Shown piece by piece: positions 15,406-43,138 of a stretch of 64,000 nt of DNA; the first letter of the stretch is position 1; every line of letters begins with the position of its first letter. The translations under genes and the position numbers were made by a program. Origin of the DNA: Agelas oroides (lineage: Eukaryota; Porifera; Demospongiae; Agelasida; Agelasidae); the NCBI GenBank assembly GCA_949130485.1, contig OX422188.1, positions 4,725,307-4,789,306 of the forward strand, in the 5' to 3' direction. A model generated the notes under the pieces. It was not told where the DNA came from and ran no database searches. It was given only the letters and a program-made list of their open reading frames with translations.

Positions 15406-15727
15406 TTATGTATCATTGGGTGTGTGCCGACTTTTTGGCTCAATGTATCCACTGGGCAACTGACATTCTCCCATATTCTCATAGGTGGTTTCTTTCTCTG
15501 ATCCCACCTCCTCATAAAGTCCATCAGATATTTCTTTTTTCACTGAAACTGGATTCATTACTATATAGCTATCATCTAGTCGGTGACGGCTTGTGGTGCT
15601 AGAGCGACGAGGGAGAGGTGGCTTTGTAAGTGCGTTAACTGCAGACATCTGATAGCCCTCACTGAGTTTTCGGTGAGTTCCTTGGAAAGGGATCTCACTA
15701 TAAGTATTTGATCTTATATCAATATTC
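15406..15727 (-). CDS. Receptor exon 30: cytoplasmic tail with tyrosine motifs
   Basis: The tail has 106 residues after the junction. Tyrosine motifs in order are NTYSEI, EGYQMS, DSYIVM, GLYEEV, TTYENM and SGYIEP. YIVM and YENM fit YxxM, the PI3-kinase p85 SH2 motif, and YEN also fits the Grb2 SH2 motif. YEEV and YENM are separated by seven residues, close to ITAM spacing but with V/M instead of L/I. KPPLPRRSS fits a class II SH3 ligand. A serine/arginine stretch follows. Stop TAA at 15408-15406. Confidence 0.87.

Positions 15728-43138: not shown

Follow-up and report, generated by a model that had tools for sequence, protein, structure and literature searches.

Gene structure

The window, a 64,000-nucleotide stretch of DNA (C6:4725307-4789306 of a 259-Mb assembly), holds an apparently intact animal gene for what its sequence suggests is a long, probably calcium-binding cell-surface protein. 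The gene (C6:4740712-4768444) lies on the minus strand, where 29 exons running from position 43138 to 15406 join in frame into 1991 amino acids (coding length 5976 nt including the stop). The deduced protein comprises, in order, a signal peptide, a Calx-beta array, three FN3 domains, a Cys module, one TM helix, and a 106-amino acid tail with six tyrosines. Outside the array, each of these parts had been named in an earlier note on this DNA and was rebuilt from the raw sequence; the in-frame closure described there also stood, with 29 exons in place of the thirty reported. The features, with the support for each, are as follows.

43069..43138, minus strand: exon 1, start codon and signal peptide (aa 1-23); rebuilt model, signal-peptide scan
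40196..41041, minus strand: exons 2-3, Calx-beta 1, degenerate, acidic positions kept; no support from Pfam or our own profile
39524..39907, minus strand: exon 4, Calx-beta 2, in a single exon; own profile only
36756..37407, minus strand: exons 5-6, Calx-beta 3; Pfam
34990..36106, minus strand: exons 7-8, Calx-beta 4; Pfam
34156..34687, minus strand: exons 9-10, Calx-beta 5, diverged N exon; Pfam
32366..34013, minus strand: exons 11-12, Calx-beta 6; Pfam
29442..31660, minus strand: exons 13-14, Calx-beta 7; Pfam
28494..29302, minus strand: exons 15-16, Calx-beta 8; Pfam
25019..27830, minus strand: exons 17-18, Calx-beta 9; Pfam
24333..24872, minus strand: exons 19-20, Calx-beta 10; Pfam
23356..24172, minus strand: exons 21-22, Calx-beta 11; Pfam
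22186..22476, minus strand: exon 23, FN3-1; Pfam
19057..22005, minus strand: exons 24-25, FN3-2, split by an intron; Pfam
18055..18351, minus strand: exon 26, FN3-3; Pfam
18194..18205, minus strand: RKKR furin-type site in FN3-3 (aa 1664-1667); motif scan, paralog comparison
17188..17249, minus strand: exon 27, short first Cys exon of the juxtamembrane module; model, paralogs
16216..16521, minus strand: exon 28, 5' part, Cys juxtamembrane module; family alignment, Pfam and PDB searches
16090..16173, minus strand: exon 28, 3' part, TM helix followed by YRRKKQR; hydropathy
15406..15727, minus strand: exon 29, cytoplasmic tail with six tyrosines, PPLPRR, and the stop codon; model, paralog alignment

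All 28 introns have GT-AG borders, and 26 of them are in phase 1, the exceptions being introns 27/28 (phase 0) and 28/29 (phase 2). No frameshift or stop falls inside a model exon. Between 15.4 and 43.2 kb, the minus strand carries five open frames of at least 150 codons and the plus strand none, while 200 first-order resamplings gave 0.24 such minus-strand frames on average and 2 at most. Codon usage in the model frame scored -0.01 per codon for exon 28 and -0.06 for exon 29. For comparison, intronic sequence (5000 draws for each length) gave a 99.9% point of -0.26 at 450 nt and a highest value of -0.11 at 321 nt; as these draws could contain stops, mere openness explains part of the difference. 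Third-position GC is similar in the Calx-beta (0.375), FN3 (0.387), module (0.368), and tail (0.346) parts.

Exon 1 scored -0.34 for codon usage, barely over the 95% point (-0.39). A scan of the stretch for an ATG with a signal-like run and, no more than 60 codons on, a phase-1 donor picked out exon 1 alone; its thresholds were of our own setting (exon 1 scores 2.58, limit 2.4), and it is blind to starts running straight into exon 4. A possible alternative start at about 40.0 kb has a signal-like stretch leading into exon 4, the hydrophobic run of which we took for the pyrimidine tract of the acceptor. Several splice sites are weak when judged by simple matrices: scores are close to 0 at the donors of N exons 11, 13, 15, 17, and 21, negative at the acceptors of exons 8 and 25, and below -4 at the tail-exon acceptor. 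A 22-nt micro-exon near 16.62 kb, with splice sites that look good by eye, was also considered; with it included, exons 27 and 28 would no longer join in frame, and it was omitted.

The Calx-beta array

The earlier note had counted about 11 Calx-beta domains and called for an HMM search of the spliced protein. When each domain was scored singly, nine of the 11 (domains 3 to 11) passed the curated cut-off of Pfam PF03160, as did all three FN3 candidates the cut-off of their own family. Calx-beta 2 alone has no Pfam match; a profile built from domains 3-11 retrieved it at E 1.6e-5, ahead of all 1000 shuffled decoys and both control pieces. Calx-beta 1 likewise lacks a Pfam match, and the same profile gave it 5.4 bits, a score beaten by four decoys. 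The acidic positions E15, D55, D83, E87, and E90, which we take to be Ca2+ ligands, are identical in all 11 domains, domain 1 included. Searched against the PDB, an 11-domain profile returned 11 distinct sequences up to E 1, all of them Na/Ca exchanger proteins (best E 4e-8); the relatives in this fold family are the calcium-binding domains of the exchanger.

Calx-beta 6-11 are closely alike at the DNA level (N exons 92-98% identical, C exons 84-96%). Calx-beta 5 combines a diverged N exon (76-79%) with a C exon 99.1% identical to that of domain 7. Across five repeat blocks, exon and intron identities were 93.1/95.0, 98.1/95.5, 92.3/93.3, 92.8/83.3, and 98.0/93.9%, the last two being computed from fewer than 60 intron sites each. 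Because exon and intron identities are comparable, the introns of these blocks appear about as young as the exons. Piece by piece, the block at 25.0-29.7 kb matches that at 29.4-34.4 kb, implying at least one two-domain step in the growth of the array. Since the Calx-beta exons are symmetric (1-1), loss or gain of a domain keeps the frame, and the number of domains detected varies among paralog regions, where the fetched regions may cut genes. With dN/dS among repeats 6-11 at approximately 0.34, the stalk appears to be under purifying selection and gives no sign of a hypervariable face within the window copy. The near-identical repeats 6-11 look more like a spacer than a varied recognition face.

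Upstream of the gene, a (GT)n tract at 47113-47243 that includes some 20 bases from a Calx-beta C exon is 94.7% identical to 32566-32696 and is perhaps a stray fragment of the array. A dispersed repeat occurs at 9845-10420 and, 79% identical, at 25757-26301 inside a Calx-beta intron.

FN3 domains and the juxtamembrane region

The furin-type site at aa 1664 is the sole R-x-[KR]-R match in the protein and, like the large gene family described below, was not mentioned in the earlier note. Furin cleavage is known inside the membrane-near FN3 of receptor phosphatases. RxxR is present in all five family members found with FN3-3, the window gene included; the four paralog copies have RKKR (two), REKR (one), and RKER (one), the last of which fits the looser RxxR but not R-x-[KR]-R. 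This conservation would also suit the precursor of a shed adhesive matrix protein, in which cleavage at RKKR, and perhaps within the Cys module, frees an aggregation-factor-like Calx-beta/FN3 molecule; the extracellular Calx-beta domains described for aggregation factors (PMC10815962) fit the same idea. We nevertheless hold shedding of this kind to be improbable, given that six of 10 close copies have no FN3-3 match yet retain the Cys module and TM helix, and that the tail tyrosines are conserved.

The Cys module has five cysteines that are invariant in 20 aligned members from the same genome. Its profile found only chance-level matches in the PDB (best E 0.75 and 0.95), as did single members in Pfam (best E 0.021), and none of the 20 members matched SEA in Pfam, nor was SEA found in the PDB by sequence. 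A single-sequence structure model of exon 28 alone predicted a helix, two strands, a helix, two strands, and the TM helix (mean pLDDT 59.2, pTM 0.45). This order of elements would suit a SEA-like domain minus its first strand, although a model of such low confidence proves nothing. SEA-like domains are described as the proteolytic switch in Notch-type receptors (PMC6586460). The TM helix peaks at a Kyte-Doolittle value of 2.92 at aa 1860, and no other 19-mer in the protein exceeds 1.6.

Relative to paralogs, dN/dS is approximately 0.23 for the Cys module (nine paralog regions) and 0.43-0.46 for the FN3 parts. Judged from these ratios and the unbroken reading frame, the exons are intact and under purifying selection. 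When the Cys-module exon and a Calx-beta C exon were used as queries, no relative was confirmed in the viral or the bacterial/archaeal collections.

Six copies of a 106-bp unit, 99% alike, lie at 21238-21877 and reproduce the 3' end of exon 24 together with its splice donor. The first copy alone is joined to the rest of the exon; the remaining ones, being intronic, would serve as decoy donors. In intron 24, a 328-bp unit occurs as two identical copies (19959-20616), reflecting a very recent duplication or an assembly effect.

A gene family in the same genome

At the exon level, Calx-beta accounts for at least 172 matches in the genome. The exon encoding the Cys module and TM helix gave 118 matches at E 0.01, six of which look like second pieces, leaving approximately 112 places. 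The window gene shares the layout of this receptor set, with Cys module and TM helix in one exon after a short Cys exon. Eleven of the places are 66-81% identical to the window's module (10 on C6 at 1.0-3.1 Mb and one on C1). Intactness varies across the set: stops occur in some of the 118 matches, and a frame break splits the copies at C6:2707268 and C6:3025046. As a separate observation, 70 of the 118 matches lie on one contig at C12:0.85-9.36 Mb, a very large receptor gene array in which some matches contain stops.

Ten of the 11 close copies were examined in nine fetched regions, C6:3025046 being left out; the copy of region I is split, with a broken module frame. Only matches on the strand of the module were kept, so a shared strand is a condition of the following counts and not a result. 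The short Cys exon precedes the module in all 10 copies, Calx-beta matches lie upstream in nine (31-44% identical in three regions), and a tail match lies downstream, in the order seen in the window, in eight. FN3-1 is matched in nine copies, one of them only 32% identical, and the full three-FN3 set in four; region B has no FN3 match.

These counts bear on whether the Calx-beta exons and the TM/tail exons might be two transcripts wrongly joined. The gene model was built from DNA, the introns are long and repeat-rich, several splice sites are poor, and no Calx-beta exon separates the second gene of region E, itself among the 10 close copies, from its neighbor. Against such an artefact, exon order is the same in the paralog regions, the phase-1 chain runs through the model, and the scan found no second spliced signal-peptide start. 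We therefore regard two transcripts as very improbable, and the single gene proposed in the earlier note holds up: as far as DNA can tell, the Calx-beta and TM/tail exons travel together through duplication.

Around more distant copies, eight segments within 1.5 kb upstream of the module, chosen by eye from 18 loci, were scanned. EGF (L013), FN3 (L016, L018, L024, and L027), and Ig (L023) passed their Pfam cut-offs, SRCR at L025 fell just under its own (25.3 versus 26.1 bits), and one of the eight segments had no Pfam match. By eye, YxxPhi- or HTYEP-like motifs appear in the downstream frames of L013-L017, L023, and L027. Proximity and strand suggest that these upstream domains and downstream frames belong to the same genes as the distant Cys modules.

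The genome also holds 97 SH2 matches and 137 kinase-family matches at E 1e-12, the latter including Ser/Thr kinases. Three open frames at C17:7.507-7.513 Mb match both SH2 and kinase, in a Src-type layout. Among the kinase matches listed (129 of 1425 candidates scored), the nearest to any of the 118 Cys-module matches is 48 kb away. At C8:4.86-5.93 Mb and C15:1.23-1.49 Mb, strong kinase-family matches crowd together on one strand in what appear to be expanded kinase clusters. Calx-beta matches form further dense arrays at C6:0.35-0.40 Mb, C13:8.36-8.42 Mb, and C14:7.56-7.58 Mb, which are candidates for aggregation-factor-like genes.

The tyrosine tail

The tail carries PPLPRR, YIVM, and YENM, as the earlier note had claimed. 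We aligned it with eight paralog tails, trimming the starts by eye to give nine rows; identity to the window was 33-36% in the alignment and 31-41% locally. Across the nine rows, the window's six tyrosines find a match 6, 6, 9, 8, 9, and 8 times, a mean of 7.67 of 9 versus 3.28 at other tail positions, and tyrosines make up two of the four invariant columns. Random six-column sets reached this conservation in 8.5e-5 of draws, or 1.4e-4 when seven less redundant rows were used. A rough consensus reads SNEAY...PPLPP...SYxx(M/V/I)...DExYE...LYExV...PSEYxEP. Alignments with the paralogs were poor, and tail dN/dS was thus not used.

At four of the window's six tyrosines, an acidic residue occupies +1/+2 and a hydrophobic residue or Pro occupies +3, a motif defined after looking that recurs in 15 of 100000 tail shuffles. 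YxxM occurs twice in the window tail (0.8% of shuffles) and at six of 69 family tyrosines, and YxN occurs once (30% of shuffles) and at eight of 69. The PI3K-type YxxM proposed in the earlier note is kept at the SYxxM site in five of nine tails and not in the rest, while its Grb2 reading of YxN in YENM does not survive the comparison, as none of the eight paralog tails has N at +2 of that tyrosine. ITIM motifs have the form [IVLS]xYxx[ILV]. None of the six window tyrosines fits; SGYIEP has S at -2, but P at +3. The sequence thus points to a tail that is tyrosine-based and conserved. Tyrosine signaling as the earlier note envisaged it draws support from the conserved tyrosines and from the SH2 and kinase-family complement of the genome, but singling out PI3K and Grb2 as its partners is more than the data allow.

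The same residues could instead mark a sorting or uptake tail in which YxxPhi binds clathrin adaptors, making the protein a scavenging or matrix-uptake receptor rather than a signaling one. In the window tail, four of six tyrosines do fit YxxPhi with Phi = I, L, V, or M, as do 35 of the 69 in the family (F counted too). We consider uptake unlikely to be the main role, however: YQMS and YIEP, matched in six and eight of nine rows, are not YxxPhi, an acidic residue stands within four places before 51 of the 69 family tyrosines, and a PPLP-like stretch is common in the family tails. Acidic residues before tyrosines and PPLP-like stretches fit kinase and SH3 docking better than uptake.

Comparison with known systems

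The Wreath domain is a feature of the sponge aggregation factor family. The window protein resembles aggregation factors in its extracellular Calx-beta array, which a review describes for those of Amphimedon (PMC10815962); entries labeled 'M. prolifera' with 4 and 15 Calx-beta repeats are listed elsewhere (PMC2805694). Unlike these factors, which are secreted and have no membrane anchor, it adds FN3 domains, a Cys module, a TM helix followed by a basic stop-transfer stretch, and a tyrosine tail, in keeping with the earlier proposal of a membrane-anchored Calx-beta protein. A link between the two would rest on the shared domain type.

R3 receptor phosphotyrosine phosphatases, with a sponge member described, share an FN3 ectodomain, one TM helix, and predicted tail tyrosines including YxN (PMC5336234). 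The window protein differs in having a Calx-beta array before few FN3 domains and no Pfam match to a phosphatase domain. Nor does its spliced C-terminal part have a Pfam match to a kinase domain, as a receptor tyrosine kinase would. Calx-beta adhesion GPCRs are of the ADGRV1 type. They too display Calx-beta on the cell surface (PMC12716839, PMC13197933), whereas the window protein has one hydrophobic span and no Pfam match to a seven-helix, GAIN, or GPS domain. Integrin beta-4 also combines Calx-beta and FN3, but its copies are cytoplasmic (PMC4030831). Notch, EpCAM, and dystroglycan, with their juxtamembrane SEA-like domains, likewise place a small module just outside the membrane, although the window's Cys module has no SEA sequence match in Pfam or the PDB. 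Our literature search, which covered few subscription journals, found no named protein with the same full layout, and this is weak evidence of absence.

Proposed function

Taking together the anatomy encoded in the DNA, its recurrence in paralogs, and the marks of selection, we infer a single-pass contact receptor and consider it the probable role of the window gene. Binding of Ca2+ would stiffen the Calx-beta domains into a long stalk or adhesive array, and a furin-type cut in FN3-3 would leave a two-chain molecule. Contact with a neighboring cell or the matrix could then cluster the receptor, whereupon a Src-type or receptor tyrosine kinase would phosphorylate four to six tail tyrosines and SH2 and SH3 proteins would dock on the phosphorylated tail. 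Lacking its own kinase, the protein would serve for docking, much as adhesion receptors with phosphotyrosine tails do. Several points speak against this contact receptor. YxxPhi doubles as a signal for endocytosis, YxN is absent from the paralogs at the YENM site, YxxM is kept in just five of nine tails, and conservation is low in the remainder of the tail. Repeats 6-11 resemble a spacer, and the model includes several low-scoring splice sites. Of the 10 close copies, two have no tail match, one no FN3-1, and one no Calx-beta exon, and the module frame is broken in the copy of region I. As to what it would sense, microbes are as open a possibility as self-recognition, since two Calx-beta genes are among the sponge genes reported to change expression on microbial stimuli (PMC6208332).

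As a single gene, this would be a phosphotyrosine-tailed adhesion receptor of a known kind, and the larger news is the family. Tentatively, and with less confidence than for the contact receptor itself, we suggest an undescribed superfamily of about a hundred loci, built on one cassette (Cys module, TM helix, and tyrosine-motif tail) to which exon shuffling has joined different ectodomains (Calx-beta plus FN3, FN3 alone, Ig, EGF, or SRCR-like). Its Calx-beta branch may be a membrane-bound signaling counterpart of aggregation-factor adhesion and a candidate contact or self/non-self sensor. Should the host be a sponge, as the earlier note assumed, these exons and tyrosines would provide defined targets for testing the receptor side of cell recognition based on Calx-beta. 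Whatever the host, a large paralogous set with one shared Cys module outside Pfam families, preceded by varied domains and followed by tyrosine-motif tails, would be a new receptor repertoire beside SRCR and NLR, the repertoires already surveyed in sponges (PMC8242945, PMC6208332).

Neighboring frames

Elsewhere in the window, two overlapping hydrophobic frames at 51679-52870 (minus strand) have the look of a seven-helix receptor and no Pfam match. Other frames neighbor the gene at 2163-2600 (plus), 4836-5762 (minus), 10909-12497 (plus), and 53580-53876 (minus). Among the neighbors, an LCAT-like lipase exon and a PHD finger exceed their Pfam cut-offs, while a reverse-transcriptase-like frame and another PHD-like frame fall below. 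By eye, the frames at 10.9-12.5 kb resemble a non-LTR element.
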